Positions 22,442-45,590 of a stretch of 64,000 bases of DNA are shown one piece after another. The stretch is from Sinimarinibacterium arenosum (GTDB lineage: Bacteria; Pseudomonadota; Gammaproteobacteria; Nevskiales; Nevskiaceae): positions 124,001 to 188,000 of the forward strand of contig NZ_SUKF01000010.1 in assembly GCF_005047655.1 (NCBI RefSeq), written 5' to 3'. Each line of letters opens with the position of its first letter. Position 1 is the stretch's first letter. The notes below the pieces were generated by a model. That model was not told the DNA's origin. It worked only from the letters and a program-made list of their open reading frames with translations, and searched no databases. The translations under genes were made by a program, and so were the position numbers.

Positions 22442-22446
22442 GGCTG

Positions 22447-22932
22447 CTATCCAGATAGCCCTGATCCGGCGAACGCCGGCCACCACATGACTGCGACGAA
22501 GGCCGGCATCATACAGGCTCCTGCCGGGATGACCCTGCCCGCTTGTGCGTCGCGCTGACGCAGACGCTGCGCCAGTCCCGGTGCCACTTTCACCACTATC
22601 GAGACGCAGCCCAGCAGCAACGAGCTCAGCAACAGCCAGACGACGGTCGGATAAGCCCCCAGTACAAGTCCGCAGCACGCGGCAAGCTTGACATCAGCGG
22701 CTCCGACCTGCCCCCACAGATACCCGGGAAGCCAGACCGTCACGCCAAGGCCGAAACCGATCAGGGAGGAGCGCCACGTCTGCCCCAATACGCCCTCCCC
22801 GGCCCATCCCCAGTACAGCACGACCCCACCGCAAACAGCCAGCAACAAGCCGTTCGGAATCCGTCGCGCATGCCAATCCGCAACGATCACGGCCACAGAC
22901 CACCCGCTCAGCAGCCACTGCGCAAGGATCAT
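22447..22932 (-). CDS. tadV: A24-family prepilin peptidase TadV (CpaA)
   Basis: A 161-residue polytopic protein. The two catalytic aspartates of the family are visible as ADWHARRIPN near residue 19 and GAADVKLAA near residue 78; the second replaces the common GxGD by GAAD. It lacks the N-methylase domain, as usual for TadV. It cleaves Flp, TadE and TadG after a glycine. Confidence 0.88.
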   Translation of the reverse strand: MILAQWLLSGWSVAVIVADWHARRIPNGLLLAVCGGVVLYWGWAGEGVLGQTWRSSLIGFGLGVTVWLPGYLWGQVGAADVKLAACCGLVLGAYPTVVWLLLSSLLLGCVSIVVKVAPGLAQRLRQRDAQAGRVIPAGACMMPAFVAVMWWPAFAGSGLSG

Positions 22933-24438: not shown

Positions 24439-25254
24439 ATGAGCAACAATCTGATTTTCATTGTCATGGATAGCTGCCGCTTCGACAGCTATGCCGCTGC
24501 GCGAACCCCCAACATGGACCGCATCGGAATCGGCGACCGCCGCTATGCCTATGCATCCTGGACCTCGCCGTCGCATTACACCTACCTGATGGGCATGATC
24601 CCGCACGACAGCCCCAAGGGCGTATTCGCTTCCGAGGTCTATAAGAAGGACTTCGTGCGCTGGGTCGATCGCCTCGGCGTCGACGACATGTCGTTTAAGA
24701 GCTTTGTGCCGACCTTGTCCCTGCCCAAGGTGCTGCAGGACGAGGGGTACCGCACGGTTGCACGTGTATCGCTGCCCGTACTCAACCCGATGAGTCACCT
24801 GAATCGTCATTTCGACGATTACAAGCTGATGTCCAATCACAATGACTTCGGCGGCATCATCAAGGAAGTCGAGTTCGACGAGGACGAACCCAGCTTCCAC
24901 TTTCTTAACCTGGGCGAGACGCATTATCCGTATATGTTGGATCCCGGTAGTCTGCCGCACATCTCGGGCGTGCATGGCGTGTTCAAGCGCATGGACGATG
25001 ACCTCGGAAAGCCGACAGAAGACGTGTTTTTCGACGACGATCAGATGAAGATGCTGCATCAACAGCAGATAAAGACGGTCGAACATGTCGACGGGCTGCT
25101 GGACGAACTGATCAGCAAGGCGCCGGTAGGCACCCATTTCATCATTACCGCCGACCATGGCGAATGTTTCGGCGAGGGTGGCTATTTCGGCCACGGACCG
25201 ATCGTTCACGAAAAGGTACTGGAAGTACCGTTCCTGGAAGGCAAGAAACGATAG
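24439..25254 (+). CDS. Compact alkaline-phosphatase/sulfatase superfamily hydrolase
   Basis: This is a 271-residue protein from MSNNLIF. It shows the metal-binding start LIFIVMDSCRFDS, a nucleophile region WTSPSH where Thr42 occupies the place of the sulfatase Cys/Ser (C-x-P-S-R), the metal motif TADHGE and a last histidine motif FGHG...HE. With Thr and no Cys it should not be a formylglycine sulfatase; a phospho-ester hydrolase or transferase is more likely. It is short for the family (commonly 400-500) yet all metal motifs are present. It is the first gene of the biosynthetic operon, 63 bases before the first megasynthase. The substrate is unknown. Confidence 0.75.
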   Translation: MSNNLIFIVMDSCRFDSYAAARTPNMDRIGIGDRRYAYASWTSPSHYTYLMGMIPHDSPKGVFASEVYKKDFVRWVDRLGVDDMSFKSFVPTLSLPKVLQDEGYRTVARVSLPVLNPMSHLNRHFDDYKLMSNHNDFGGIIKEVEFDEDEPSFHFLNLGETHYPYMLDPGSLPHISGVHGVFKRMDDDLGKPTEDVFFDDDQMKMLHQQQIKTVEHVDGLLDELISKAPVGTHFIITADHGECFGEGGYFGHGPIVHEKVLEVPFLEGKKR

Positions 25255-25317
25255 TCAGGGCACGAGTGCCGACGTTAGAGCGGCACAGAGCCGTAAGCAG
25301 TACACGGAGCGGGGAAG

Positions 25318-28300
25318 ATGACAGACAAGACGTTCGAGATTGCGGGCATTGTTCCCGCAGATATGGCTCATCCGGGCTTGGCGCTGGCACTGGCGCGGTC
25401 GGGTGCCACCGGTCTGCTCGACCTGGAATTCGTGACAGATACCGGCCAGGCGCGGAACAACCTGCGGCGACTGTTCGAGGCCACTGATGCCCGCATTGGT
25501 CTGCGCGTCGTTGCAGCGCAGGCGTCGCTCGCGGCTGAAATCATTGCCACCGCCGGTGCACGCGCGTTGACTGTTGTGCTGGCAGGAGCGGCAACCGAGC
25601 TTCCGGCGCTGCGCAAGAAACTCCAACTTCGGGATCAGGATTTCTGCCTCGCGGAGATCACCTCGGCCGACGATGTCGATACCGTGACACCCCATTGCGC
25701 AGCGCTGCTGCTGCGCGGTCACGAATCCGGTGGCTGGGTCGGCGACGACACCAGCTACATCCTGCTGCAGAAGGTGCGCCGTCGCACACAACGGCCGATT
25801 TACGTCCAGGGCGGCATTGGCGTGCGCGCCGCAGCCGCATGCCGCGTTGCCGGCGCGGCAGGTGTCGTCCTCGACGATACCCTGTTGTTGCTGGCCGAGT
25901 CTCCGCTGACTGAGACGCAGAAAAGCGAACTGGGCCGTCTCAACGGCGCCGAGACCCGCCTGCTTGGCGAGCTACTCGGCCGCCCGTGCCGGGTCTATGG
26001 TCGCCCGAACAGCCCTGCACTGAAAGCGGCGGAGGAACTCACCCGCACCGCCGAAGGCGGCAGCCTGACGGTCGAAGAGTGGACGCATCGGCTCAGCGAA
26101 AGCCTGGGCTGGAGCGCCGACTCCAGCCGCGTTCTGCCGCTGGGCCAGGGCATCGGTCTGGCCGCACAGTACCGCAAGCAGTACCGCAGCGTCGCACGCC
26201 TGGTGCAGGCCATGCGCCGCGCGTCGCGCCAGCAGGCGGAACAGGCTGCAGAATTGGGTTTCATAGGCGAAGACGGCCCACTGGCGCGTTCACACGGCAC
26301 CCGCTTCCCGCTGTGCCAGGGGCCGATGACCCGTGTATCGGACAGCCCTGAATTCGCGGTCGACGTCGCCAAGGGCGGCGCACTGCCGTTTCTTGCGCTG
26401 GCGCTGATGCGCGGACCGCAGGTTGCGCAGATGCTAGAGCAGACGCGCGCGCAGATCGGCGATCGCCCCTGGGGCGTCGGCATGCTTGGCTTTGTTCCTC
26501 ACGCCCTGCGCGAAGAGCAATGCGCCGAAATCTGGAAATGCAAACCGCCGTTTGCGCTGATCGCCGGCGGTCGCCCCGATCAGGCGGCTGAATTTGAGAA
26601 GCGCGGCATCGCAACCTACATCCACGCACCGGCACCGGCGCTGCTGAAGATGTATCTCGAACAGGGCGCGCGCCGCTTCGTGTTCGAAGGCCGCGAATGC
26701 GGCGGTCATATTGGTCCGCTGGCCAGCTTCCCGTTGTGGGAGCAGATGATCGAAGTGCTGCTGACCGATGTGCCGGCCGGCGAAGAATCGAAGGTCCACG
26801 TCCTGTTTGCAGGCGGCATTCACGACGCCACTTCCGGCGCGATGATCGCGGCCATGGCCGCGCCGCTGGCTGCGCGCGGCATGAAGGTCGGCGCCCTGAT
26901 GGGCACGGCCTATCTGTTCACCCAGGAAATCGTGCAATCGGGCGCTGTGGTCGAGGGATTCCAGGCCGAAGCCCTGAAGTGTCATCGCACAATGAGCCTG
27001 GAAACCGGACCGGGACACGCGACCCGCTGCGTCGACACCAAGTTTGCCCACGACTTCTATGAAACCCGCAAGCGCCTGATTGGCGAAGGAAAGAGCGCCG
27101 AGGAAATCCGCGACATCCTCGAGGATCTCAATCTGGGCCGCCTGCGCATTGCGTCCAAGGGCGTGGACCGCAGTGGCGACGGCAAGATCGTGCCAATCGA
27201 TCCGCAGCAGCAGCTGACGGATGGCATGTACATGATCGGTCAGGTCGCCACCCTGCGCGATCACGTGTTGAGCGTCGAAGCGCTGCACACCGAAGTCAGT
27301 CACGACGGTCAGGCCATGCTCGAAACGCTGGCTGCCGCGCACAAGATGCGGGTCCAGGCGGCACAGCCGTCGGACGTGGCCATCGTCGGTATCGGCGTGC
27401 TGCTGCCCAAGGCGGACTCGCCGCAGGACTACTGGGATCACATCGTTCACAAGATCGGCGGAATCGGCGAAGTGCCGAGTTCACGCTGGGACTGGAAGCA
27501 GTACTTCGACGCCGACCGCAAGGCGCGGGACAAGGTCTATTCGCGCTGGGGCGGCTTCATCGACGAGGTCGCCTTCGATCCGATGCGCTTCGGCATTCCG
27601 CCCAAGTCGATGAAATCCATCGACCCGATGCAGCTGTTGACGCTGGAAGTGGCCAGTCGCGCGCTGGACGACGCCGGTTATCGCGACGGCGGCTTTGCAC
27701 GTGAAACCACCTCGATCATCCTCGGTGCGGGCGGCGGCCTGGGCGACCTCGGCCTGCAATACGGCGTCCGTGCTGAACTGCCCCGCTTCGTCGACAACAT
27801 TTCCGACGAAACCTGGGACCGGCTGCCCGAGTGGACCGAAGAATCCTTCGCCGGCACCCTGCTGAACGTCGCTGCGGGCCGCGTCGCCAACCGCCTCGAT
27901 TTTGGCGGCGTGAACTTCACCGTCGATGCCGCGTGCGCGTCATCACTGGCAGCCATCAGTCTGGCGGTGGGTGAACTCGAATCGGGTCGCAGCTCGATGG
28001 TGCTGGCTGGCGGCATCGATACGGTGCAGTCGCCGTTCGGTTACCTGTGTTTTTCGAAAACCCAGGCGCTGTCCCCAAGCGGCCAGCCGAAGACTTTTGA
28101 CAAGAACGCCGACGGCATTGCGATCAGCGAAGGCCTCGCGGTCGTGGCCCTGAAGCGTCTGGCCGATGCCGAGCGTGACGGCGACCGCATCTACGCGGTG
28201 ATCAAGGCAGTTTCCGGCTCCAGCGACGGCAAGGCACTCGGCCTGACCGCGCCGCGCCCGGAAGGCCAGGTGCGGGCACTGCATCGCGCCTACGCCAAGG

Positions 28301-31300
28301 CAGGTTTCTCTCCTTCGACCTTGAGCCTGATCGAAGCGCACGGCACCGGCACCGCTGTCGGCGATCGCGCCGAGGCGCAGACGATTACCAGCGCCTTGAT
28401 CGCCGAATCCGCTGCGCCCAAGAGCGTCGCACTGGGTTCGGTCAAGACGCTGATCGGCCACACCAAGGCCAGCGCCGGTGTCGCCGGACTGATCAAGGTC
28501 ACGCTGTCGCTGTATCACCGCGTCCTGCCGGCGCATCACGGCGTCAGTCAGCCGATCGACACCATCGCCGACCCCGCCTCGCCCGCCTACCTGCTGAAGG
28601 ATGCGCGGCCGTGGCTGGCGCATCCGGACCACCCGCGCCGCGGTGGCGTGTCCGCGTTCGGCTTCGGCGGCACCAATTTCCATGCGGTGCTTGAGGAGTA
28701 CGCGTCAACCGCGCCGGTCATCGGTCAGGGCCGCTGGCCGGCCGAACTGCTGCTGCTGCGAGCCGCCGACAGCGCCAGCCTGGCGCGGGACCTCGAAAAA
28801 CTGCGCGGAATGCTGCAGCCCGGAAGTCGTGTGGTCCTGGGCGAACTCGCGTTTGCGCTGGCTCGCGCGGCCGAAGCACGCCGCGGCGCAGCACTGACGC
28901 TGTGCCTGGTCGCGACTCAGGCCAGCGCGCTGCTGTCCGAGATCGACGCGGTGGTGGCGCATCTGCATGACGCCAGCAAACCCTTGCCTCCGACCGCGCG
29001 GCTGAACCGGCAAACCCCGGCGCAGTCGCCCGACGTCGCGTTCCTGTTCCCCGGCCAGGGGGCTCAGTACGTCAACATGGGCCGCGAATCGGCGCTCTAT
29101 CTGGACGATCTGCGCAGCGCACTGGAACTGGCTGATCGCAGTCTGCGCAGCGAGTTCCCCGAGCGGTTGTCGTCTTACGTGATGCCCCCGGCAGCGTTCG
29201 ACCCGGCCGCAGAGACTGCTCAGCAGCAGGCGCTGACCGATACCCGCGTTGCGCAGCCGGCCATCGGTGCGCTGGCATTGGGCTATCTGCGCTTGGCGCA
29301 TCGCCTGGGGCTGAACCCGGTGGCGACCGCCGGGCACAGCTACGGCGAATACGCGGCGCTGCACGCCGCCGGCGTGTTCGACGCCGAAAGCCTGCTGTAT
29401 CTGTCCGCCGTTCGCGGCCGCGCCATGGCAGAGGCCGCAACCACCTCGGCACCCGGCACCATGGCCGCGGTGCAGGCAAAGCGCGAACGCATCGCCGAGC
29501 TGATTGAAGGCATCGACGGCGTCCGTATTGCCAATCACAACGCACCCGAACAAAGCGTGATTTCGGGCGCACGCGCAGGCGTTGAGCAGGCGGTCGCAAA
29601 ACTGGCGGAAGCCGGGATTCGCGCAGTCATGCTGCCGGTATCCGGCGCGTTTCATACCGAGCTGGTCGCCGCGGCACGCACACCGCTGTCTACCGCAATC
29701 CGTGCAACGCAATTTGCGCCGGCGCAGTGCCCGGTCTACTCGAACAGCCGCGGTGCCCCCTACCCGGAAGCTCCGGATGCGATCCAGGCACTGCTGGATG
29801 ACCATCTGCTCAACAGCGTCGAGTTCGTCAGCGAAATCGAGGCGATGTATGCCGCCGGCTGTCGTGTGTTCCTGGAACTGGGCCCCAAGAGCATCTGCAG
29901 CAACATGGTGCGGCAGATTCTCGGAGGGCGTGAGGCTTTGGCGGTATCGCTGGACGCCGGCGGCAGCCTGCGTGGAACCCTGCAGGGGATCGCCGATCTG
30001 TGCGCAGCCGGCGTGCAACTCGACATCCTGAATCTGTTCGATGGACGTGATCTGGCACTGCTGGATCTGAACGAGCTGGCGCAGATGGCGCAGCCGTTGT
30101 CGCTGCCGCAGCATACCTGGATGGTCAGCGGAGGTTGCGCACGCCAGATCACCGACCCGCAGATTCGCACCGGCCGTCAGCCCGCGCTGAACAAGGCCAC
30201 TGCAGAAGCCGCCCAGGCCAAGCGCGCAGCCGAGCTCCAGGCCGCGGCGCAGTCCGCCGCTGCGGCAGCGCCTGCAAGCGCTGCGTCTCCGATGCCGTCC
30301 AGCACTGTGGCGCCCGTTAACGCAGCCCTGAACAGTGAAGCCGTGGTTGCCTATCAGCAGACCATGCGCCAATTCCTGCAGCTGCAGGAACGCGTGGTCC
30401 AGCAGTTCCTGGGCGGTGGGGCCCCTTCCACGTCGGCAGCCCTGCCTCAGATCTCGGCACCATTGCCGATCGCCAACACCACGCCGTCCGCAGTCGCAGC
30501 ACCAGCGACTTCACGATCTGCGGTCGCGCCTGCGCCTGCGCCTGCGCCTGCTGCAGTGTCTCCGTCACCGGCCATCGTCAAGCCGGTACCGAGCCACAGC
30601 AGCGCGCCACGCGTTGATTTCAAGGCTGTACTGCTCGGCATTGTCGCCGAACGCACCGGCTACCCCGAAGACATGCTCGGGCTCGACGCCGATCTCGAAG
30701 CCGATCTCGGCATCGACTCGATCAAGCGCGTCGAAATCCTCGGCGCGTTCCAGAAAGCCCTGCCCGGTGACTTTGGCGGCAACATCCAGACGGCGATGGA
30801 ACGCTTCACCCGCGCCAAGACACTCAACACCATCCTGAACGAAGTTCGGGCCCTGGCGCCTGAAACCGGCGGTGCTGAGATCGTTGAGCCCGCAGCTACG
30901 GCGGCAGACGCACGCGTCACCACGATTGACTACAAGTCGATCCTGCTCGGCATCGTCGCCGAACGCACCGGCTATCCGGAAGACATGCTCGGGCTGGACG
31001 CTGATCTCGAAGCCGATCTCGGCATCGACTCGATCAAGCGCGTCGAAATCCTTGGCGCATTCCAGAAAGCCCTGCCCGGTGAACTCGGCGGCAACGTCCA
31101 GGCGGCGATGGAACGTTTCACCCGCGCCAAGACCCTGAACGCCATCCTCGCCGAGATTCAGGCGCTGGCACCCGCGGTTGCGGCGCCGGTTGCTGTTGCG
31201 GCAGCTGCCGCAGTGGCGGCAACGCCGGCAATCGACTTCAAGGCGCTGCTGCTCGGCATCGTCGCCGAACGCACCGGCTATCCGGAAGACATGCTCGGGC

Positions 31301-34272: not shown

Positions 34273-37200
34273 CGTCCATGGACTCGAAACCGCTCGATAT
34301 TGCCATCATCGGTATGGCCGGCCGCTATGCCGGTGCACGCAACGTCACGACCTTTTGGCAGAACATCCTCAACAAGGTGTATTCGGTCACCGATGCGTCG
34401 CCGGACTGGGCGCAGCCGTACCTGGATCCGGACTCCACGGCATCCAACCGCATCTACACCTCACAAGGTGGCTGGCTGCATGACCTCGCCGAATTCGACC
34501 CGCGCGAATTCGGCGTCATGCCCAACGCGGTCGACGGCCGCGAACCCGACCATTTTCTGGCATTGCAGAACGCGCGCGATGCCCTGGCGGACTCGGGATA
34601 CCTGGACAAGCCGTTCAATCACGAGCGCGCCGGCATCGTGCTCGGTCGCGGCAACAACACCAATCGCGGTCAGGCTACTCTGCTGGCCCACGGCAGCCTG
34701 CTTGATCAGGTGGTCGAACTGGTGGCGACGGTTCGCCCCGACTTCAGTGCCGACGAAATCGACGCGCTGCGTGAAGGCCTCCGCGCCCAATTGCCTCCGT
34801 TCAATCCGGAAATGCTGCCGGGCCTGATCCCGAACATCACGACCGGCATCATCGCCAACCGGCTCGACCTGATGGGGCCGAACTACATCGTCGACGCCGC
34901 CTGTGCGTCGTCGCTGGTAGCGATCGAACACGCCGCACGCGAACTGCGTTCAGGCCGCTGCGACCTGATGCTGTCCGGCGGCGTACACGCGCAGACGCCA
35001 CCGCAGACCTACATGATCTTTTCGCAGATCAACGCATTGGCACGCGATCAGATCCGGCCGTTCCAGAAAGGCGCCAACGGCACGCTGCTCGGCGAAGGCT
35101 GCGGCGTACTGGTGCTGAAGCGCCTCGAAGACGCCGAGCGCGACGGTGACCGCATCTATGCAGTGATCAAGGGCATCGGCGTCGCCAGCGACGGCAAGGC
35201 CAAGGGCCTGTTCGCGCCGCGTCAGGAAGGCCAGGTCGTGGCACTGCGTCGCGCTTATGAATCCTGCGGCATTGACCCTGCAACGATCGGCCTGATCGAA
35301 GCGCATGCCACCGGCATCGCGCTGGGCGATCGCACTGAAGTGCGCTCGCTGTCGACCCAGTTTGGCGCACGTGACGGCGCACTGCCGCGGATCGCACTGG
35401 GCTCGGTCAAATCGATGATCAGCCACGCAATTCCAGCATCGGGCGCGGCCAGCATGATCAAGATGGCCTTGTCGCTGTACCAGAAGGTGCTGCCGCCGAC
35501 GCTGTGCGACGAGCCGGCGCCGGAACTGGAACTCGAGAAAACGCCGTTCTACATCAACAACGAGACGCGGCCGTGGATCCACGATGACCGCACGCCGCGC
35601 CGTGCCGGAGTCGACGCCTTTGGCTTCGGCGGCATCAATGCGCACGTGATTCTTGAGGAATACCGGCCAAGCAACGGCACCGCGGTACAGGTGCCGGTGA
35701 TGCACGCGCCGTCAGAGTCCGAGCTGGTCGTGCTGGGTGCAGCGTCGCGCTCCGATCTGCTGGCCGCGGTCGGTGCGCTGCGTGAAACCCTGCAGCGTTC
35801 ACCGCTGGCATCGCTGCCGTCGCTGGCCAAAGCCTGCGCCGAGCGCTCCGAAGGCGAGCACCGCCTTGCGATCGTCGCAGCCGACAAGGCCGAACTGCTG
35901 AAGCGTCTCGAACAGGCTGCGGACAAGCTGCACGATCCTGCGGTCGGTCCGTTCAAGACCCGTGGCGGTCTGTACTACGGCATCGGCAATGCGCCTGGCA
36001 AAGTCTGCGTTTTGTTCCCCGGTGAAGGCGCGCAGTACACCAACATGCTGGCAGACGTCTGCGTGCATTTCCCGCAGGCGCGCAGCTGGTTTGATTTTCT
36101 GGAGAGCACCACAGAAGGCCGCGGTGCGCGCGCACCCGTGATCTTTCCGGTTCCGACCACGATCGACGAGCAGACCCGTGCCGGGCTGGAAGCTCAGCTG
36201 CACGAAATGGATTACGGCGCGGAATCCGTATTCACCGCGAGCATGGCGCTGTACGAGATTCTCAGCACACTGGGTCTGCAACCGGACGCGATGCTCGGCC
36301 ACTCCACCGGCGAGAACACCGCGCTGACGGCATCGCGGGTGCGACGCTTCGAGAACCGCAGCGAGATCGCAGATACCGTGCGTGATCTCAACCGCATCTA
36401 TCGCGACCTCGACGAACAGGGTGCGATCGTCGAAGGCGCACTGCTGACGGTCGGCGCGCTCAAGCCGCCTCAGCGTGAAGCCCTGCTGGCCCGCGCCGAC
36501 GGCAAGCTGCAGGTGGCGATGGACAACTGCCCGAACCAGTTGGTGCTGTTCGGCAGTCGCGAGGATATCCACGCGCTGAAGACCGAGCTGTCCGGCGAAG
36601 GCGCGATCTGCGTCGAATTGCCGTTCGGTCGCGCGTATCACACCGAGTTGTTCAAGCCGATTGGCGACGCCTACCGGCGCTATTTTGCATCCATCGGCTT
36701 CGGACCCGGCGTTGCGACGCTGTACAGCGCCTGCAGTGTCGGTCCATTTCCTGACGACGCCGACGCAATCCGTGAGCTGGTCGCCAGTCAATGGGAAAGC
36801 CGGGTGCGGTTCACCGAAACGGTTCAGCGCCTCTACGACGATGGCTATCGCGTGTTTGTCGAGGCCGGCCCCAGCGGCAACCTGACATCCTTTGTTTCCG
36901 ACATCCTGCGTGGCCGCGACGATGTCATCGCAATTGCCAGCAACAGCCGCCGTAAATCCGGCATCAGCCAGTTGCAGCACGCACTGGCTCAGCTGTACAC
37001 AACCGGCGTAGCGATTGATCCGCGCCAGCTGTTTGCGTTCCGCAACATCGATCCAATGGATCTTGAAGCAACGCCGCCTGCGGTCAAACGGCGTCCGAGC
37101 TTGAACCTGATGATGCCGAAGTTGCACTGGCCCGAGTCAATCCCGGTGCCGCCGTTGCCGATCCTGGGCACGGTCGTTGCGCCGTCGTCGTCTCCAGCGC

Positions 37201-39140
37201 AAGTGGCGCCGGCAATCCCCGTGGCAGCCGCCAGCAACGACCCGCGCTCGACGTTCCTGCAAACGCACTTCGCACTGATGCAGGAATTTCTCGACAGTCA
37301 GGCTCGCGTGCTCGGACTTGCAGGCGCCCCCCCCGCAGCACCAGACGCTGCCGCAGTGCCGGCAGCGGCGGCGGCGGCGGCGACCAGCCCGCCCCCGGTG
37401 CAAACCCGGCGCCAGGACGACTTCCCGATGCTGGGAACCATCGTCGAACAGGAGCCGACGCGCCTGGTCATCGAGCGTGAATTCTCGCTGTCCCGCGATC
37501 TGTTTCTGCGCGACCACACCATCGGTGGAGCGCCGTCGCTGCGTGATCCGGACCTGCTGCCGATCGCCGTGATTCCGTTCACTTTCAGCATGGAAATCCT
37601 GGCCGAAGCGGCGATGCGTCTGATCGGGCGCGACGACCGGGTTGTCGTGGCGATCGAACAGTCCCGCGGCAATCGCTGGCTGTCACTGGATGACGACTCG
37701 GTACGACTGCGCATCGTCGCAGTCCGCGACGCCACCAGCACCGCCGATGAGCGCGTCAACGTGCGCATCTTCATGCTCGGCAAAGGACCGCAAGGTGGCA
37801 TGCTGGTGTTTGAAGGCACGGTATTGCTGGCGGAGCAGTACCCACCCGCTCCTGCCGCACGCCCGTGGTCGTCCTCCGACGAGTTTGCACCGGCCAACAA
37901 TCCGGATGGCGAGCTGTACAGCCACGGCATGTTTCACGGCCCGCGCCTGCAGGGTGTCAAACATGTGCGACGCTGGGGCTCCGACTCGATCGAAGCCGAC
38001 CTCGAAGCCATCCCGACCCACGACTATTTCTCGTTCACCCAGGCGCCGCACTTCCAGTTCGACGCCGCGATGCTCGACGCTGCCGGCCAGCTCGCGGGCT
38101 ATTGGCTGACCGAAAAGCACACCTGGGGCTTCAACTGCTTCCCGTTCCGGCTCGGTCGTTTCAGCCTGTACGGCCCGCCGCCTGCGGCGGGAACGCGCGT
38201 AATCTGCCGCGGTGACGTCCGCTTCACCGACGAAACCATTCTGGAAGCCCAGTTCGACATGATCGGCGCCGATGGTGCGGTGATCATGCGCGCTGACGGC
38301 TGGGAAGACCGCAAGTTCGCCGTGCCGCAGCGGCTTTACGAATTCCGCATCCGTCCGGATCGCGAGTTCATGACGCAGCCTTATCTCTCCGCTGAATTGC
38401 CGCCAGAGATCCTGATGCGGCAGATGGAACCGTTTCCGCAGCACTTTCTCGACGAGGGTGGTGCAATCTGGAAACGCATGCTGGCGCACATGCTGCTGAG
38501 CCACGCCGAGCGCCGCAGTTTCTATGCGCTGCCGCAGACCGGTCCACGCCGCGAGGAATGGCTGATGGGCCGCGCCGCGGCCAAGGACGTCGTCCGCGAC
38601 TGGGCCGCGAGCCTCGGTGTTTCGTTGTGCGCTGCTGATATCGAAATCGCCAACGACGCGGACGGCGCACCCCGCATCGTCTGCCCGGCGCTGCATGGCC
38701 ACGCACTGCCGACGCTGTCGATCAGTCACAGCCGCTATTGGGCGGTGGCTGCTCTGGCACCGGCGGGCACGATGCTCGGTCTGGACTATCAGCGCCTCGA
38801 AGGGATCGACGTCGGCCACCTTTCCACCGGTGGACTGTCCGAAGCCGAGCGACCGCTGGCCGCACATGCCGACCATGGCGAGCACCTGCGTCGCACAGCC
38901 GCGTTGTGGTGCGCCAAGGAAGCGGCCGCCAAGGCGGTCGGAACCGGCCTGCAAGGCCGGCCGTTGGACTGGACCGTCACCCACGCACGCTTCGACAGTG
39001 CGCGGGCATCGATACAGATCGAGTATCAGGGTCAGACTTTCGACATCGACGTCCGTTTCCCTGGCCCCCATGAAGTCGTTGCGGTCTGCCGTGTCGGGCA
39101 GTCCGTGCTGCAGCGTCCCCGGGCGGAGACTGCGGCCTAG
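34269..39140 (+). CDS. Second megasynthase subunit, KS-AT-DH-PPTase
   Basis: This is a 1623-residue protein without an ACP, so it must act on the ACP array of the preceding subunit. KS (about 5-450) has Cys212 in DAACASS, His346 in EAHATG and His386 in an unusual SHAIPASG in place of GHxxAAAG. AT (about 577-900) has GHSTGE, Ser679 and a YHTEL motif at His791. A double-hotdog DH (about 1065-1400) has His1083 in RDHTIGG and Asp1270 in FDAAMLDAAGQ. The C-terminus (about 1415-1600) is a Sfp-type phosphopantetheinyl transferase (GRAAAKDVV, GLDYQ with Asp1506, WCAKEAAAKAVG with Glu1551), which could activate the ACPs. The GTG at 34269 overlaps the upstream TGA; the ATG at 34278 is the alternative start. 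No thioesterase domain is seen. Confidence 0.87.
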   Translation: MTSMDSKPLDIAIIGMAGRYAGARNVTTFWQNILNKVYSVTDASPDWAQPYLDPDSTASNRIYTSQGGWLHDLAEFDPREFGVMPNAVDGREPDHFLALQNARDALADSGYLDKPFNHERAGIVLGRGNNTNRGQATLLAHGSLLDQVVELVATVRPDFSADEIDALREGLRAQLPPFNPEMLPGLIPNITTGIIANRLDLMGPNYIVDAACASSLVAIEHAARELRSGRCDLMLSGGVHAQTPPQTYMIFSQINALARDQIRPFQKGANGTLLGEGCGVLVLKRLEDAERDGDRIYAVIKGIGVASDGKAKGLFAPRQEGQVVALRRAYESCGIDPATIGLIEAHATGIALGDRTEVRSLSTQFGARDGALPRIALGSVKSMISHAIPASGAASMIKMALSLYQKVLPPTLCDEPAPELELEKTPFYINNETRPWIHDDRTPRRAGVDAFGFGGINAHVILEEYRPSNGTAVQVPVMHAPSESELVVLGAASRSDLLAAVGALRETLQRSPLASLPSLAKACAERSEGEHRLAIVAADKAELLKRLEQAADKLHDPAVGPFKTRGGLYYGIGNAPGKVCVLFPGEGAQYTNMLADVCVHFPQARSWFDFLESTTEGRGARAPVIFPVPTTIDEQTRAGLEAQLHEMDYGAESVFTASMALYEILSTLGLQPDAMLGHSTGENTALTASRVRRFENRSEIADTVRDLNRIYRDLDEQGAIVEGALLTVGALKPPQREALLARADGKLQVAMDNCPNQLVLFGSREDIHALKTELSGEGAICVELPFGRAYHTELFKPIGDAYRRYFASIGFGPGVATLYSACSVGPFPDDADAIRELVASQWESRVRFTETVQRLYDDGYRVFVEAGPSGNLTSFVSDILRGRDDVIAIASNSRRKSGISQLQHALAQLYTTGVAIDPRQLFAFRNIDPMDLEATPPAVKRRPSLNLMMPKLHWPESIPVPPLPILGTVVAPSSSPAQVAPAIPVAAASNDPRSTFLQTHFALMQEFLDSQARVLGLAGAPPAAPDAAAVPAAAAAAATSPPPVQTRRQDDFPMLGTIVEQEPTRLVIEREFSLSRDLFLRDHTIGGAPSLRDPDLLPIAVIPFTFSMEILAEAAMRLIGRDDRVVVAIEQSRGNRWLSLDDDSVRLRIVAVRDATSTADERVNVRIFMLGKGPQGGMLVFEGTVLLAEQYPPAPAARPWSSSDEFAPANNPDGELYSHGMFHGPRLQGVKHVRRWGSDSIEADLEAIPTHDYFSFTQAPHFQFDAAMLDAAGQLAGYWLTEKHTWGFNCFPFRLGRFSLYGPPPAAGTRVICRGDVRFTDETILEAQFDMIGADGAVIMRADGWEDRKFAVPQRLYEFRIRPDREFMTQPYLSAELPPEILMRQMEPFPQHFLDEGGAIWKRMLAHMLLSHAERRSFYALPQTGPRREEWLMGRAAAKDVVRDWAASLGVSLCAADIEIANDADGAPRIVCPALHGHALPTLSISHSRYWAVAALAPAGTMLGLDYQRLEGIDVGHLSTGGLSEAERPLAAHADHGEHLRRTAALWCAKEAAAKAVGTGLQGRPLDWTVTHARFDSARASIQIEYQGQTFDIDVRFPGPHEVVAVCRVGQSVLQRPRAETAA

Positions 39141-39196
39141 AAGCCGTCGATCGTCCGACTCCATTCGAGCTCCGTTATACCCAAGGATCACCCCCC

Positions 39197-40801
39197 ATGA
39201 CCCGCACCCTGTTCATCGGCCTCGACGGCTGCACTTTCACCGTTCTCGATCAGATGATTCGCGACCTGCCCGGTGAAGGCGTGACGATGCCTTTCATGAA
39301 ACGCGTCGTCGAAGGCGGCGTCCGCGCGAAGCTGCGCTCGACCCCCAATCCCTTGACTCCCCCGGCATGGACCAGCATCCAGACTGGCAAGGGCCCTGGC
39401 CAGCACGGCGTGTTCGACTTCATCCGTGCCGAGGATAAAGGCGGCGAAGTGTTCTGGACGTTGTATGACGCGCGCGATGTCGATTCGGAAACGATCTGGT
39501 CGGTCGCCAGCCGCAAGAAAAAGCGCATTGCCGCACTGAATTTCCCGCTGACGGCGCCGCCCCCGGGCAACATCAACGGCTTCATTGTGCCGGGCTTCAT
39601 TCCGGCCAAGCACTTGCGTCGCAATACGCATCCGCGCGAACTGTTCGAGCGCATGAAGCAGAACATTCCCGGCTTCGATCCCAAGGAACTGGCGTGGGAT
39701 TTCGACAACGAAAAGCAGGCGCTGGAAGTGCTGTCGCCGGAGGACACCGAAAACTGGGTGCGCTATCACCTGCCGCGCGAAGAACAGTGGTTCAAGATTG
39801 CCGAGTACATCCTCGACAGCGAACGTCCCGACCTGATGGCCGTGATGTTCGATGGCACTGACAAGATCCAGCATCAAGCCTGGCAGTTCCTCGATCCCGC
39901 ACTGGTTCCGGCTAACCCGCAGGGCTGGGAAGCCCGCATGCGCGCGGTGTGCCTGGAATACTTCCGCAATCTCGACCGCTACATCGAGCGCCTGGTGACC
40001 CTGGCCGGCCCTGAAGCGCAGGTGTTCTTCGCCTCGGATCACGGGTTCACCGCATCGAACTTCGTGCTGCGCATCAACAGCCTGCTGGAAGACCTGGGCT
40101 ATCTGAAGTGGGCCGAGAGCGACGGCAGCGAGCAGGCGCTGCGCCGTGAAGCCAGCGACTTCGCCAATCTCGATTGGTCGAAGACCACGGCCTATTGCCG
40201 CACGCCGTCATCCAACGGCATCCACATCCGCGTCGCCGAAAATCCCGGCGATCCGGGCATCAAGCCGGAAGACTATGTCGCCTTCCGCGACAAGCTGATT
40301 GCCGACCTGATGTCGCTGAAGGACCCTGAAACGGGCAAGCAAATCATTGTCGACGTGCTCAAGCGCGAAGAATGGTTCCCGGGTCCGCACATGAAGGAGG
40401 CCTGCGACTTGACCTTGGTGCTGAGCGACAACGGCTTCGTTTCGATACGCAACTACAAGCCGGCCGTCGTCCAGCGCCCCAATGCCGCCGGGACACATCA
40501 CCCCGACGGAATCTTCATGGCGTACGGCAAGGGCATCGACGCAACCGGCCAGGAAGTCGAACTGCGCCAGATCGTCGACGTCGCTTCGACGCTGCTGTAT
40601 AGCCTCGGTCTTTCGGTACCATCGGACCTCGAGGGCGAAGTTCCAACCAGTTTCTTTGCTGCGGAATACATGGCTGAGAACCCGGTCAAGCAAGGCGCCA
40701 AGACGCGCCTGGAGCGCAGCGGTGAAGCCCGTGAAGAGATGGATGAAGAGGAAAAGAAAAAGATGATCGAGCAGCTGCAGATGCTCGGCTACATGGAATA
40801 A
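39197..40801 (+). CDS. Alkaline-phosphatase-superfamily phosphodiesterase-like enzyme
   Basis: The 534-residue protein opens with TLFIGLDGCTFTVLD (metal Asp10) and has PPAWTSIQTGKGPGQHG with the probable nucleophile Thr59, then FDGTDKIQHQ, and FASDHGFTAS with metal Asp/His. This is the type I phosphodiesterase/nucleotide pyrophosphatase layout. The C-terminus is a charged helix (EEMDEEEKKKMIEQLQ). No signal peptide is evident, so a cytoplasmic role is likely. It begins 56 bases after the second synthase and is the second enzyme of this superfamily in the operon. Transfer or removal of a phospho-headgroup on the lipid product is a guess. Confidence 0.8.
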   Translation: MTRTLFIGLDGCTFTVLDQMIRDLPGEGVTMPFMKRVVEGGVRAKLRSTPNPLTPPAWTSIQTGKGPGQHGVFDFIRAEDKGGEVFWTLYDARDVDSETIWSVASRKKKRIAALNFPLTAPPPGNINGFIVPGFIPAKHLRRNTHPRELFERMKQNIPGFDPKELAWDFDNEKQALEVLSPEDTENWVRYHLPREEQWFKIAEYILDSERPDLMAVMFDGTDKIQHQAWQFLDPALVPANPQGWEARMRAVCLEYFRNLDRYIERLVTLAGPEAQVFFASDHGFTASNFVLRINSLLEDLGYLKWAESDGSEQALRREASDFANLDWSKTTAYCRTPSSNGIHIRVAENPGDPGIKPEDYVAFRDKLIADLMSLKDPETGKQIIVDVLKREEWFPGPHMKEACDLTLVLSDNGFVSIRNYKPAVVQRPNAAGTHHPDGIFMAYGKGIDATGQEVELRQIVDVASTLLYSLGLSVPSDLEGEVPTSFFAAEYMAENPVKQGAKTRLERSGEAREEMDEEEKKKMIEQLQMLGYME

Positions 40802-40879
40802 CGACTCCGGGATGTTGGCAGAACCGGGGGGAGCCCGGGTCATGTCCGGACGTTAACGCGTCCGTCAAGGAGTCTTGTG

Positions 40880-41716
40880 ATGGGTGATATGCAGTTGGTG
40901 CCGTTGACCGAGTTGTCGGCGCGAGGCCTGTTGGCCGGTGACGGCCGCATGATTCACGGCGAACTGAGTTACGAACGGCCGGCGTACATTTATCGGCATC
41001 GGCTGAAGAACTGTACTGTCGGTGCGTTCGCGTATTTCAACGCGGCCGGCTCCACCAGCGCCTATCGCGTGACGTTTGGACGCTACTCGCAGATCGGCGA
41101 ATCGTCGATCATCGGTCCACCGGAGCATCCGATGGACTGGTTCAGCTCGCATCCGTTCGCATTCACTCGGCCGGAGCACATGCCGAACATCTATTCGACG
41201 CCGGATTTTGTGCGGCTCGGACCGGAAGCTAGCGACGAATCCGCCTGGGCCGACCAGCAACCCAACGATACCTACATTGGGCACGAGGCTTATGTGGGCG
41301 CTGGATCCTTTATCAAACGCGGCGTCAGTATCGGCCATGGCGCCTGTATCGGCGCACGCAGCGTGGTTACCCGCAACATCCCGCCCTACGCGATCGCAGT
41401 TGGCAGCCCGGCGCGGGTGATCCGACTGCGTTTCGACGAGCGCATCGTCGAGCGCCTGCTGCAATTGCAGTGGTGGCGCTATGATCTTGCTCCGTTCAAG
41501 CATCAGGTCGATTTCTCGCAGGTCGAGGCGACCCTGGAATTTTTCGAACAGCGCCTCGCGGACAACGACCTTGCCGAACTGATGCCGGACACCTATCGTG
41601 TGACGCCCGCTGGCGAAGCCCTGCGCTTCGAGCGATTGTCAAAGCCGCTGTTCTGCAGCGACACCGACCCATTTCCATTCCCCCCTCCAAGACTTGACCA
41701 TGCCTCTAGACCGTGA
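40880..41716 (+). CDS. Hexapeptide-repeat acyltransferase (CatB/xenobiotic type)
   Basis: The protein has 278 residues from the ATG at 40880, which has AAGGAG seven bases upstream. Left-handed beta-helix repeats are visible ([33 protein letters not shown]), followed by the typical [18 protein letters not shown] and a WWRYD end motif of CatB-like O-acetyltransferases. An N-terminal part with [14 protein letters not shown] precedes the helix. These enzymes move acetyl or acyl groups from CoA or ACP to hydroxyl or amino groups. The next gene, an ACP, overlaps its 3' end by 17 bases, so an acyl-ACP donor is plausible. Confidence 0.85.
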
Positions 41717-41987
41717 CGCCATCGTCGGCAAACTGATCGTCCTGCTTGAGGACTTTACCCAGGACTGGGACAACGACCTCGACGCCGCCATGAGCGCCGA
41801 CAGTCGCCTGCTCGCCGATCTCGGTTTCGAATCGGTGGACATCATCCAGCTGACGGTCGCCATCGAAGAAGACTTCGGCCTGTCGAAAACACCGTTCGAC
41901 AAGCTGCTGATGAAGGACGGCCGCTATGTCGACGACCTCAGCATTGGCCAGATCGCAGATTTTCTCAGCGCCTTCGTTCGCGGCTGA
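41700..41987 (+). CDS. Free-standing acyl carrier protein
   Basis: A 95-residue ACP with the phosphopantetheine motif [17 protein letters not shown] (Ser45). It starts inside the acyltransferase gene and ends eight bases before the hydrolase gene. It is unrelated in sequence to the four ACPs of the synthase, whose motif is LGIDSIKRVEIL, so it probably serves a separate acyl-loading or transfer step. Its size and acidity are standard for the family. Confidence 0.9.
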
Positions 41988-41995
41988 AATCAGGC

Positions 41996-42853
41996 ATGGC
42001 CCAGGCCGACATCAACGGCGCACAGCTGGCCTGGCAACAGCTTGGCGACGGGCCGGATCTGATCCTGGTCCATGGCCTCGCGGCCAACCGCGCATTCTGG
42101 TTTGCGGCTGCGACCGCGCTGGCGCCGCGCTTTCGCGTGACCCTGTATGACCTGCGCGGGCACGGCTACAGCAGTCGCGCTGCCGACGGCTACTCCGCTA
42201 GCGCCATGGCAGGCGATCTGCTGCAGCTGATGGATGCCTTGGATATCGACGCCGCAGTGCTCGCCGGTCACAGCTATGGCGGCGCCATCGCACTGGAAGC
42301 TGCTGCTCAGGCACCGCAGCGGTGTACCCGCCTGGCATTGTTCGACTCGCGGATACAGCGCCTGCAGCCGCAGATGCGCATGCATGATCTGCCCCTAAGT
42401 GCCTACGAGCGTGCCGTTGCCGACGCCAGCACCCGTGCGTACGGCTATGACTGGGATGCTGAGACTCAGGTCGGCTTCCGCTTTCTCGAGGCGACCGCGC
42501 GCCTGCGGGCCGATGCGCTCGACGCCGATCTGCGTGATAGCTTCACGCCGTTCGGCGAAGGCCGCGGCGCCGTGCGCGCCGCACGCCAGTGGTTACGTCT
42601 ACTCGACGAAACGCGGGCACGTGATGAATTCGCCGAGCCCGGCGCCGAGACCGAAGTCCTGCGCCGGCTGACGATGCCGAGTCTGTTGATGTATGCGCAG
42701 GGCTCACGCTGCCTGCCGTCGGCCGCAGCCCTGAAGGAGCTGCTCCCTGCCCCGCGGTATCAGGAATTGGCTGGCGCCGGCCACTTCTTCCCGGTCAGCC
42801 ACGCCGCCACCGTCGCGGCCGTGTTGCAGGACTTCGCTGGCGATGCATCGTAG
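41996..42853 (+). CDS. Alpha/beta hydrolase, possible trans-acting thioesterase
   Basis: This 285-residue protein has the alpha/beta-hydrolase pattern LILVHGLAANRAFW (oxyanion region), GHSYGG with Ser93, a lid region and a late GAGHFFPVSH supplying the histidine. No signal peptide is seen. As neither megasynthase carries a thioesterase, this enzyme next to the ACP is the best candidate for product release, but an esterase or lipase role is equally compatible. It overlaps the next gene by 11 bases. Confidence 0.82.
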   Translation: MAQADINGAQLAWQQLGDGPDLILVHGLAANRAFWFAAATALAPRFRVTLYDLRGHGYSSRAADGYSASAMAGDLLQLMDALDIDAAVLAGHSYGGAIALEAAAQAPQRCTRLALFDSRIQRLQPQMRMHDLPLSAYERAVADASTRAYGYDWDAETQVGFRFLEATARLRADALDADLRDSFTPFGEGRGAVRAARQWLRLLDETRARDEFAEPGAETEVLRRLTMPSLLMYAQGSRCLPSAAALKELLPAPRYQELAGAGHFFPVSHAATVAAVLQDFAGDAS

Positions 42854-43775
42854 TCGTTTCTGCCGTCGCATCGGCCTGCTGACGGCGGTGCTTCTGATGC
42901 TCTGCGCGTGCAGTGTTCCACGCGCACCCACCGCCACACCCGCGGACAGCGCGATGCGCTCAAGCACGTTATCGACAGCGGATGGCGTTCGCAGCTACCG
43001 GATATTCATCCCTCCTGGCTATTCGGCGCAGCGACCGATGCCACTGGTCGTCGCGCTGCATGGCGGTCTGGGCAGCGGCGAAATCATGGCGGAGCAGACC
43101 GGCTTCAATCGTGTTGCCGAGGCGCGTGGATTTTTGGTCGCGTATCCGGATGGAATCGGGCGCACCTGGAACGCCGGGCGCTGTTGTGGGCCGGCGATGG
43201 AGAAGCGGATCGACGATGTCGGCTTCGTCCGCGCGGTGATCGCGCAGGTTCGACGGGACTATGCCGTCGATACCGCGCATATTTTCGGCACCGGATTTTC
43301 CAACGGGGCGATGCTGCTGCACCGCATCGCCTGCGAGGCCCCCGACACCTTCAGCGCGATCGCACCGGTCTCCGGCGGCATCATGCTCAGCCCCTGCGCC
43401 GCACGCAGCGGTGTCTCCGCGCTGCTGATCCAAGGCCGCGACGACCCGCGAATTCCGTGGAACGGCGGCGTGTTCGATGACAGCTACCGGCCATCAATGG
43501 CGGATGTGGTGAACTCGCTGGCGCAGCGCAATGGCTGTGGCGCCGGCGAACAGGTCATTGAGCAGAAAGGCGCTGTCAGCTGCAGTGCACGCAGTAGCTG
43601 CCGAGAAACGCTGCAGTGGTGCGGACTGGCAGGCGTCGGTCACCAGTGGCCCGGCGGCGCCACTTACCTGCCCCGATTGCTTGGTCAAAATACCGCAACA
43701 TGGGACGCCAGCCGAGCCATCGGCCAGTTCTTTGGCACCCAGATTGCCCGATCCGCGACACCAGCCGCCCGTTGA
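42843..43775 (+). CDS. Lipoprotein esterase of the LpqC/PHB-depolymerase family
   Basis: The 310-residue protein has a signal ending in a lipobox LCAC (Cys23), so it is likely a lipoprotein of the periplasm or outer membrane. The catalytic core shows VVALHGGLGSGEIM, the nucleophile elbow GFSNGA, RDDPRIPWNGG and HQWPGG with the histidine. These are features of poly(3-hydroxybutyrate) depolymerase/feruloyl-esterase-like proteins. Its overlap with the preceding hydrolase puts it in the biosynthetic operon, suggesting that it trims an exported ester; the true substrate is unknown. Confidence 0.83.
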   Translation: MHRSRFCRRIGLLTAVLLMLCACSVPRAPTATPADSAMRSSTLSTADGVRSYRIFIPPGYSAQRPMPLVVALHGGLGSGEIMAEQTGFNRVAEARGFLVAYPDGIGRTWNAGRCCGPAMEKRIDDVGFVRAVIAQVRRDYAVDTAHIFGTGFSNGAMLLHRIACEAPDTFSAIAPVSGGIMLSPCAARSGVSALLIQGRDDPRIPWNGGVFDDSYRPSMADVVNSLAQRNGCGAGEQVIEQKGAVSCSARSSCRETLQWCGLAGVGHQWPGGATYLPRLLGQNTATWDASRAIGQFFGTQIARSATPAAR

Positions 43776-43916
43776 ATTCCGGACCCCACCGGGGATAATT
43801 CTCCTATTGCGTAAGCGATCGACTACGCGCAGCATCACCATAGGACTGCATTGAACCGCCGCCAGGCGACGATGCAGGAGACCCCGACATGGGGCGCCGC
43901 GATGGGGGAATCTGCG

Positions 43917-44672
43917 ATGGTTGGGGAATCAGCGCCGGTGGTGCTTGTCACCGGTTCATGCGGGGGCATCGGCAAGGTCACTGCCGATCTCTTTGCGAAA
44001 CATCACTACCGCTTGGCACTCACGGATCTGGATCTGGATCAGGTCAGCGAGCAGGCGTCACGCCTAGCCGAGCAAGGCGTCGATGTCGAGGGCTTTGCCT
44101 GCGATATCACCGACGCGCACTCGGTCGGACGCTTGTTCGATCGGGTGATCGACCGCTTCGGACGCATCGACGCCGCATTCAACAACGCCGGACGGGGTGG
44201 TGGTGCGGTACCGCTGACTGAAACCGAGGATGATCTGTGGCATGCCTGCATTCAGGTCAATCTGACGGGCACCTTCCTGTGCATGAAGCAGGAATTGAAG
44301 ATCATGTCGGCGCAAGGCTACGGCAGCATCGTCAACAACTGCTCGATTCTCGGCCTGCATGGCGGCGCCAGCGCACCGTATACCGCCAGCAAACACGGTA
44401 TCGCCGGACTGACCAAGACCGGAGCGCTGAGCTATGCCTCGAAAGGCATTCGCGTCAACGCGGTATGCCCGGGTCTGATTGACGCCGGCCTGGGGCTGAA
44501 AGTCTTGTCACGCCCACCGGAAGTGGTCCGGAGCCTGATTGATATGCACCCGATGGCGCGCCCGGGTACTGCAGCAGAGGTGGCCTCAGCGGTGGTCTGG
44601 CTGAGCTCACCGGAAGCCTCCTTCATCAATGGCCACATGCTGTCCATCGACGGCGGCTACGGTTGCCACTAA
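43917..44672 (+). CDS. Short-chain dehydrogenase/reductase
   Basis: A 251-residue classical SDR: cofactor motif TGSCGGIG (residues 12-19), NNAG, and the catalytic triad Ser143, Tyr155, Lys159 in NCSILG...PYTASKHG, ending with SIDGGYG. The ATG at 43917 is preceded by GGGGGA at about seven bases and leaves nine residues before beta-1; in-frame starts at 43851 (TTG), 43872 and 43902 are possible. It lies 141 bases after the esterase (fewer with the upstream starts), so it may have its own promoter. A beta-ketoacyl or secondary-alcohol reduction fits the context but is not proved. Confidence 0.85.
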   Translation: MVGESAPVVLVTGSCGGIGKVTADLFAKHHYRLALTDLDLDQVSEQASRLAEQGVDVEGFACDITDAHSVGRLFDRVIDRFGRIDAAFNNAGRGGGAVPLTETEDDLWHACIQVNLTGTFLCMKQELKIMSAQGYGSIVNNCSILGLHGGASAPYTASKHGIAGLTKTGALSYASKGIRVNAVCPGLIDAGLGLKVLSRPPEVVRSLIDMHPMARPGTAAEVASAVVWLSSPEASFINGHMLSIDGGYGCH

Positions 44673-44684: not shown

Positions 44685-45590
44685 TCAGGCATAACCGAGA
44701 TCGCGCGCAAGCTCGACCAGATCCGGAGAAAATGCGCAGCCGTCGTCGCGCCACGGCAACACTCCCTCGAGCCTTGGCGTCTGATCCCAACGCCGCGGCA
44801 GCGTGATCGATTCGAGCACATCCGCCTCGAGACCATAAGGCGCCGACGGCGGGCCAAACCCGGCAAACGACCAGTCGTCGGGCTGCGCCATCGCGGCCAG
44901 CGCCACGTCTTCCGCCGGAAGGCCAAGCGCAGTGCACAGTGCATGCAGCGACGCCACTGAAGCCACATCAATGTCTTCAATGCGCTGACGCACAATCCGA
45001 ATCTGAGCCTCGTGCGCGAGCAAACGCTCAATGTTGTGGTGAACCCGGAACCAGCCGAGCTGGGGATCAATCACCGGCGGCTGTCTGGAGTGATCCTTGA
45101 AATCAGCCGGAACAAACAGTCGCTCACGCAGCCACGCCGCCTGCACCAATCCCTGTGCATACGGATGTCGCAGCAGCTGCAGAATTTCTGCTCTTGGCGC
45201 GGCAGTCCGCAGGCGCAGCAGATCAGAGGTTCGCAGCGGCGTCTCGACATCCGGCACCACCAACCGACGCGGTGCAGCCATCGTCGCCAGCGTATGCAGA
45301 ATTTCTGCCGTCGAAACATCGGCACGCGATTGCAGCCACCGGCGCGCCCGTTCGATGTGGTCATCGTCCTGACCGCCGAATTCTAGAACCGCCAGAGCCC
45401 GCATCAATCCATCGCCGTGTGCGCCCTGCCCGATATCGACAATCTCCAGCAGCTCGCCAACGTAATCGGCCATGAACAGGTCCAGCTGCGGCACTGCGAA
45501 GAGTGACGGATGCTGTCCCAGGATCGCGGCGGCAAAAGACGCGCCGGAAAATGGCGCCGCCAGAATGAAGATGGGATCAACGGGTCTCAT
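44685..45590 (-). CDS. Sulfotransferase-like protein
   Basis: The protein has 301 residues from MRPVDP. The N-terminal PIFILAAPFSGASFAAAILG resembles the 5'-phosphosulfate-binding loop of PAPS sulfotransferases (usually PRSGTT/S), and LLRHPYAQGL resembles the 3'-phosphate-binding RDPR region. The loop is divergent: PFSGAS. It may transfer a sulfate from PAPS, or be a non-catalytic relative. It overlaps the beta-propeller gene by 14 bases and is the last gene of the minus-strand set, ending 12 bases from the convergent SDR stop. Confidence 0.65.
   Translation of the reverse strand: MRPVDPIFILAAPFSGASFAAAILGQHPSLFAVPQLDLFMADYVGELLEIVDIGQGAHGDGLMRALAVLEFGGQDDDHIERARRWLQSRADVSTAEILHTLATMAAPRRLVVPDVETPLRTSDLLRLRTAAPRAEILQLLRHPYAQGLVQAAWLRERLFVPADFKDHSRQPPVIDPQLGWFRVHHNIERLLAHEAQIRIVRQRIEDIDVASVASLHALCTALGLPAEDVALAAMAQPDDWSFAGFGPPSAPYGLEADVLESITLPRRWDQTPRLEGVLPWRDDGCAFSPDLVELARDLGYA

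Follow-up and report, generated by a model that had tools for sequence, protein, structure and literature searches.

The 64,000-nucleotide stretch of Sinimarinibacterium arenosum analyzed here (contig NZ_SUKF01000010.1, positions 124,001 to 188,000; hereafter the window) belongs to a 4.54-Mb draft genome and carries two adjacent multidomain megasynthase genes, surrounded by a set of accessory genes on both strands. This cassette is a real, conserved and functionally uncharacterized secondary-lipid system, wider and more complete than a previous sequence-only reading of the window had recognized. Megasynthase 1 (protein 1; 25318-34272, plus strand, 2984 aa) has the order NPD-NPD-KS-AT-ACPx4-KR-DH and megasynthase 2 (protein 2; 34269-39140, plus strand, 1623 aa) the order KS-AT-DH-PPTase, where KS is ketosynthase, AT acyltransferase, ACP acyl carrier protein, KR ketoreductase, DH dehydratase and PPTase phosphopantetheinyl transferase; the open reading frames (ORFs) overlap by four bases, as that reading had claimed. 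Pfam identified KS, AT, four PP-binding stretches, KR and DH in protein 1, and KS, AT, DH and ACPS/PPTase in protein 2. The NPD family, NMO in Pfam, was not reported for the undivided protein 1 (E 0.01) and was matched when residues 1-310 (31.7 bits) and 311-671 (51.4 bits, against a gathering score of 28 for both) were submitted separately, so that both domain orders proposed before are confirmed. Protein 1 also scored 1367 bits against the NCBIfam model omega_3_PfaA (TIGR02813; cut-off 1010), which agrees with the earlier view of a Pfa-like secondary-lipid synthase.

Catalytic residues were compared chiefly in a set of 52 rows, one from the window and the others from 51 of the 80 loci retrieved by a species-genome scan, described below. 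The Cys-His-His triad is present in 52/52 rows of the protein 1 KS and likewise in 52/52 of the protein 2 KS, the window among them, when counted by alignment column, strict motif patterns having proved too stringent (33 to 52 of 52). Protein 2 is therefore no chain-length factor (CLF), and its candidature as a KS-CLF was rejected because the full triad is kept. The second NPD domain of protein 1 shows the enoyl reductase (ER) motif EGxECGGHxGP in 51/52 rows. The Arg of ATs binds the malonyl group; it is found in all 30 rows examined for the protein 1 AT, while the protein 2 AT keeps Ser and His and has no conserved Arg in the corresponding column (30 rows). The number of ACPs per protein 1, counted by motif, ranges from 1 to 6 across the 52 rows, with four in the window, and the low counts are lower bounds since some ORFs are split or broken. 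In the window, the PPTase motifs read DGAP (P1a, fitting x(G/D)xP) and LSISH (P1b', fitting hShxH). The latter pattern, applied strictly, occurs in 39/52 family rows; seven of the 13 misses are short rows (1029-1315 residues), some of them with no PPTase match, and the other six are long rows.

All the accessory genes named by the sequence-only reading gave Pfam matches and lie on the plus strand between 24439 and 44672. Upstream of protein 1 is a small hydrolase of the AlkP superfamily (sulfatase/STM4013-like; 24439-25254, 271 aa), whose match to PF00884 is weak (25 bits) and whose score against the NCBIfam STM4013 family (66 bits) is below the cut-off of 250; its predicted structure (pLDDT 61) was set aside. 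D11, T42, D239, H240 and H252, which are AlkP metal-site residues, are invariant in 14 sequences, and identity is 77-86% in the eight of 10 relatives possessing the gene. Downstream of protein 2, the large AlkP-superfamily enzyme (type I phosphodiesterase/phosphonoacetate-hydrolase-like; 39197-40801; PF01663, 138.6 bits) has D10, T54, D219, H226, D281, H282 and H434 invariant in 23 sequences and a distant likeness to phosphonoacetate hydrolase and NPP in the PDB. It is followed by a hexapeptide (CatB/Vat-type) acyltransferase (40880-41716; Pfam and NCBIfam; H83 in 37/37 aligned rows), a discrete ACP (41700-41987; PF00550; Ser45 in 41/41), an alpha/beta hydrolase that is a thioesterase or acyltransferase candidate (41996-42853; PF00561; H92-S93 and H263 in 41/41), a putative lipoprotein esterase of the PHB-depolymerase type (42843-43775; PF10503; lipobox recognized by eye) and a short-chain dehydrogenase/reductase (SDR; 43851-44672; PF13561). 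In the fetched neighborhoods of 10/10 relatives, proteins 1 and 2 are encoded side by side and the hydrolase lies downstream of them, and the order small AlkP, protein 1, protein 2, large AlkP, hexapeptide transferase, ACP is kept in eight of the 10, so the operon arrangement is not due to chance. In a sample of 276 genomes across the class, each AlkP enzyme occurs in two of the three synthase-positive genomes (G060 being the one without it) and in 0/273 others.

The named genes, however, are only part of the set, for four genes on the minus strand at 44685-50790, missed by the earlier reading, also belong to the synthase block. These encode a Sulfotransfer_3-like protein with a degenerate motif for binding 3'-phosphoadenosine 5'-phosphosulfate (PAPS) (44685-45590; PF13469 and alignment), a 495-aa beta-propeller protein (45577-47064), a HlyD/RND-type periplasmic adaptor whose N-terminal region is long and hydrophobic (47067-49397; TIGR01730, 118.6 bits, above the cut-off), in which no HExxH motif was found, and a TolC-type outer membrane channel (49417-50790; TIGR01844, 252 bits). 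The propeller and sulfotransferase-like genes are within the block in 9/10 relatives and the HlyD and TolC genes in 8/10. In one relative (G024) all four follow the operon on the same strand; in two genomes of another family (G060 and G064) the sulfotransferase-like, propeller and HlyD genes adjoin protein 1, with TolC on the opposite side, after the esterase. Cyanobacteria, Competibacteraceae, Desulfobulbaceae and Alphaproteobacteria likewise have homologues of the sulfotransferase-like protein, the 495-aa protein and/or HlyD close to the synthase. In addition, the Competibacteraceae-type and Rubellimicrobium loci L124, L127 and L136 each have two or more sulfotransferase-like genes, and L127 and L136 have a second, divergent propeller gene alongside the synthase.

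The beta-propeller is a partner of the synthase. Pfam and NCBIfam scans gave no match for the 495-aa protein, whose structure is predicted as a beta-propeller (pLDDT 91.7), and a Foldseek search of the PDB with this model returned generic propellers only, with query TM-scores of at most 0.45 among the 50 matches listed. Among 100 relatives, own genome included, the propeller occurs in 51/52 protein-2-positive and 0/48 protein-2-negative genomes; the positive set was assigned manually, 11 of the 63 matching genomes being scored negative because they matched only other KS proteins, at less than 46% identity. Across the class, it was found in G000, G060 and G364 only, that is, in 3/3 genomes with protein 1 and 0/273 without (Fisher p = 3e-7, uncorrected for kinship). 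G000 and G364 were assigned as protein 1 carriers by a first KS tree and G060 by 49% identity; of the other nine genomes in this sample matching the PfaA model, eight fall elsewhere in that tree and G299 is unplaced. In two Actibacterium strains (L115:17645-20230 and L116:17768-20317) the propeller is fused with an extended SDR, which suggests that it is tied to enzymology and not to signaling.

Of the 58 genomes sampled in the window's family, its own among them, 46 have protein 2, and for that reason a house-keeping lipid fits better than a strain-specific metabolite. The species-genome scan, which covered the best 80 loci of 138 relatives, many of them metagenome-assembled, places loci in Nevskiales and their kin, Competibacteraceae, Chromatiales, Acidiferrobacterales, Rhodobacterales, Parvularculaceae, Cyanobacteria and Acidobacteriota; Chloroflexi, Desulfobulbaceae and a Deltaproteobacterium bin contribute a single locus each, and there are a few further bins. 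The synthase is rare in the family of Frigidibacter (4/149 at E 1e-130, two of the four known beforehand). A plasmid search gave no record with at least 80% coverage of protein 2. Neighbors were counted at E 1e-5 within the sequence retrieved around each locus: the 31 Nevskiales loci have the large AlkP in 31, the ACP in 31, the hydrolase in 29, the propeller in 15 and the sulfotransferase-like gene in 17, and the 21 loci beyond Nevskiales and near kin, selected for at least 10.5 kb beyond the protein 2 KS-AT, have them in 19, 18, 15, eight and seven, respectively, the low counts being due in part to short flanks. Three Salinisphaerales-type loci (L062, L064 and L095) fall outside both groups. 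Several cyanobacteria have a divided protein 1, in which an ORF of approximately 1890-2190 aa ends in the ACPs and KR-DH is encoded separately downstream.

The KS phylogeny gives each of the two proteins a separate, supported clade. The tree relied on has 58 rows, lacks FabF and is rooted on the KS of PfaC/HglC; its family rows were chosen by hand (20 + 20, from 19 of the 80 loci plus the window), the input having been reduced from 203 to 168 by removing rows identical to or contained in others, with the two best-scoring TIGR02813 matches as PfaA references and HglE rows (Fischerella and Westiellopsis) assigned by gene context. The protein 1 KS forms one clade of 20 rows (support 99/95), which joins the Type P ArsA-like KS and a pair of KSs from a Streptomyces cluster and the same-genus second cluster (100/98); it lies beside, not within, the Type P clade, and the exact sister relation is weak (80/52). 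The protein 2 KS forms a separate clade (98/81), sister to the second KS of the Streptomyces and second-cluster systems (100/100), and PfaA, HglE and another cyanobacterial synthase fall outside both clades. As a result, neither KS nests in a characterized clade having the same operon. Two other trees were less suitable: in the first (91 rows), one outgroup row contained non-coding sequence in its N-terminal part and sat on a very long branch, and in the second, a quick tree rooted on FabF rows that covered 13-27% of columns, the protein 1 rows did not form one side of a branch.

Neighbors by KS include the Streptomyces plasmid clusters L202 and L204 and the same-genus second cluster L194, all with two megasynthases, the first of which begins with NPD-NPD in L194 and L204; the first KSs of L202 and L194 adjoin the protein 1 KS and the second KSs of L204 and L194 adjoin that of protein 2. 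The Streptomyces clusters also continue with an ACP and an alpha/beta hydrolase, but a glycosyltransferase and a methyltransferase come next and no AlkP or propeller is annotated. The second cluster L194:1894-13644 (G010, contig C14) encodes a 2465-aa NPD-NPD-KS-AT-ACP-KR protein and a 1451-aa KS protein. HglE/HglC is also a type I long-chain lipid synthase, and Fischerella genomes have both systems; membership in it was rejected, as the KS lies outside the HglE clade, and HglC-like proteins, unlike protein 2, have two KS-like domains. A probable counterpart is Type O, whose members Dinoroseobacter shibae, Gloeobacter violaceus and Parvularcula bermudensis have no assigned product in the survey that defined it (Shulse and Allen 2011; PMC3098273). 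The present family occurs in the same lineages, namely Roseobacteraceae (Actibacterium, Rubellimicrobium), Gloeobacterales (Candidatus Cyanaurora) and Parvularculaceae (Marinicaulis); the P1a and P1b' motifs of the window PPTase fit the M-T kind described there, and the protein 1 KS adjoins Type P, which the same source places in Type O's half (M-T) (PMC3098273). Some of the alphaproteobacterial members that we found differ in having a shorter protein 2. We thus regard it as quite likely that the cassette is Type O, the comparison having been made by lineage, PPTase motif and KS position. No mention of AlkP, propeller or export genes was found in that survey's account of Type O, and the word "sulfotransferase" has no occurrence in its main text (PMC3098273).

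Building on the observed domain content, catalytic residues, conserved block, co-occurrence and KS phylogeny, we propose reaction steps, a product class and an export route, and consider it on balance probable that the cluster codes for a type I secondary-lipid synthase that works iteratively and reductively, makes a very long acyl chain and is accompanied by modification and export genes of its own. The PPTase at the C-terminus of protein 2 would activate the discrete ACP as well as the four in tandem, and extender units would be loaded by protein 1 through its malonyl-type AT. Elongation cycles would then be carried out by the two competent KSs, the KR, the two DHs and the second NPD domain, as an enoyl reductase of the FabK/PfaD type, while the protein 2 AT, devoid of the conserved malonyl-AT Arg, could either load the starter or move the finished chain. 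The chain would be very long and largely reduced, with C22-C26 expected by analogy with Ars, whose chain length is given as C22 to C26 (PMC3098273). The discrete ACP and the alpha/beta hydrolase may receive it next, and the AlkP-type enzymes, the hexapeptide acyltransferase and the SDR may modify it, head-group modification by such accessory enzymes being a plausible candidate step; the propeller/sulfotransferase-like pair might act on the chain or hold it, and HlyD and TolC would take it to the cell surface. The polyene-type product contemplated by the sequence-only reading was rejected as unsupported, because the combination of ER, KR and two DH domains is consistent with full reduction and both KSs fall outside the branch of PfaA. 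More tentatively, we envisage that the product belongs to a class of very-long-chain envelope lipids not described before and is exported. It would be made by a two-protein synthase with two active KSs and finished, or handed to HlyD-TolC, by a dedicated propeller that is often coupled to a repurposed sulfotransferase fold. Such a lipid would be characteristic of the surface of the Solimonas/Nevskia family, where most sampled genomes have the synthase, and would have spread to cyanobacteria, acidobacteria and others.

Several observations weigh against this proposal. The fetched neighborhoods of G060 and G064 have no matches for AlkP, the hexapeptide transferase or the discrete ACP (E 1e-6), and neither AlkP enzyme is present in the whole G060 genome; both genomes retain the two synthases, hydrolase, esterase, propeller, sulfotransferase-like gene, HlyD and TolC, so that AlkP, the hexapeptide transferase and the discrete ACP are dispensable in places. 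The protein 2 of Frigidibacter, Marinicaulis and Rubellimicrobium (L131, L135 and L136) is shorter (1298-1357 aa) and matches PPTase without a match to DH; five Competibacteraceae-type loci (L124, L125, L127, L130 and L134) encode a version of 1050-1085 aa that consists of KS-AT only. Furthermore, the sulfotransferase-like protein of the window's lineage lacks the P-loop Arg, Nevskiales reading PFSGAS, PFCGAS, PPGAHA or similar at that site. Its activity in the window is doubtful given this degenerate PAPS motif, and for the same reason a plain sulfotransferase was rejected as its identity. Finally, one synthase-positive genome, that of Hydrocarboniphaga effusa (G041), has no propeller match. 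On contig C1 of this genome protein 2 appears twice (27002-31870 and 230534-235402) with identical scores, reflecting a duplication or an assembly artefact.

An Ars-type (Type P) phenolic-lipid pathway, in which the chain serves as primer for an aromatic or pyrone head group, has much of the synthase in its favor and is still improbable. Type P is represented by arsABCD of Azotobacter vinelandii. In Azotobacter, alkylresorcinols and alkylpyrones are built from C23-C25 fatty acids supplied by ArsA (PMC4824345), and the plasmid-borne ArsA-like protein WP_012382816 of Beijerinckia, a strain listed as Type P (PMC3098273), is 40% identical to protein 1 over 2143 positions from residue 8, both NPD domains included. 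With two NMO stretches, KS, AT, two ACP stretches and KR, it shares the NPD-NPD-KS-AT-ACP-KR order, differing by the DH that protein 1 has and for which it gave no match, and its DH-PPTase neighbor matches protein 2 from residue 1031 onward (29%), in addition to the KS kinship. The claim made before that the operon corresponds to no nameable pathway consequently holds for the accessory set, which is conserved and for which we could name no product, but not for the domain order, for which Beijerinckia offers a precedent. Against the Ars alternative, protein 2 carries an additional triad-complete KS plus an AT, and the window has AlkP, propeller, hexapeptide transferase and export genes, of which AlkP and propeller are unannotated beside the Beijerinckia protein. 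Two neighbors of the latter are annotated as 3-oxoacyl-ACP synthase III C-terminal domain proteins, which we take for ArsB/ArsC-type type III polyketide synthases (PKSs), whereas no such counterpart was found among the window genes scanned; on these grounds and on the position of the KS outside the Type P clade, membership in Ars/Type P was rejected. A polyunsaturated or polyene acid made in the manner of Pfa is also unlikely, though slightly less so. The window shares with Pfa Types A/B a multi-ACP synthase, tandem ACPs followed by KR, an NPD-type ER, two DH domains and the TIGR02813 match above cut-off, but its ER is fused to protein 1 and its KS lies outside the PfaA/HglE branch. No pfaC-type KS-CLF-DH2 protein was found, protein 2 having one KS and no second KS-like domain, and the PPTase motif of Pfa, FNxSH (P1b), is replaced by LSISH, which fits hShxH (PMC3098273). 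Membership in Pfa was rejected on the KS position, the lack of a KS-CLF protein and the PPTase motif.

The HlyD-TolC pair in the block and the sporadic occurrence in the Frigidibacter family could instead indicate an exported bioactive polyketide and not a structural lipid, to which we give about the same low probability as to the Pfa-like product: most of the genomes sampled in the window's family have the synthase, and no partner of the nonribosomal peptide synthetase (NRPS) or modular PKS type is among the window genes scanned. Sulfation and hydrolysis yield a terminal alkene in the olefin synthase/curacin route. Such a route would employ the sulfotransferase-like protein and the alpha/beta hydrolase, whose genes recur near the synthase in several phyla, and the motif RS-x-[TS]-S is kept in the cyanobacterial and Competibacteraceae copies of the former; in the window's lineage, however, that motif is replaced by the Nevskiales readings given above, and the gene adjoins the propeller and not the hydrolase, which makes a terminal alkene very improbable here. 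The iterative reducing synthase of a very long acyl chain remains our preferred interpretation.

Since secondary-lipid synthases of known product are few, a synthase found in several phyla and in most sampled genomes of one family, with a linked protein that matches no Pfam or NCBIfam model, deserves attention. The identity of its product would probably extend to the Type O clusters left open in 2011, and the propeller can serve as a marker for the pathway. Within the openly licensed literature, no paper beyond the 2011 survey was found to describe the cassette, and nothing for hglE-KS with Solimonas or for a cyanobacterial cluster with a sulfotransferase; a 2026 paper on polyunsaturated fatty acid synthase hybrids concerns PKS-NRPS hybrids, which are different from the present cassette (PMC13291983).

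The genes that border the block were also recorded. A Tad/Flp pilus cluster (12606-22678, minus strand; Tad, TPR, two T2SSF, T2SSE, TadZ, secretin, RcpC and TadE) lies immediately before the operon, which is preceded by a calcineurin-like phosphoesterase (23346-24161) found in the same position in four of the 10 relatives (G001, G004, G006 and G009). After TolC, the minus strand continues at 50991-58560 with genes for an MMPL/RND-type transporter and for Ycf48-like, DUF1329 and DUF1302 proteins, and the transporter adjoins TolC also in G001, G004 and G006.

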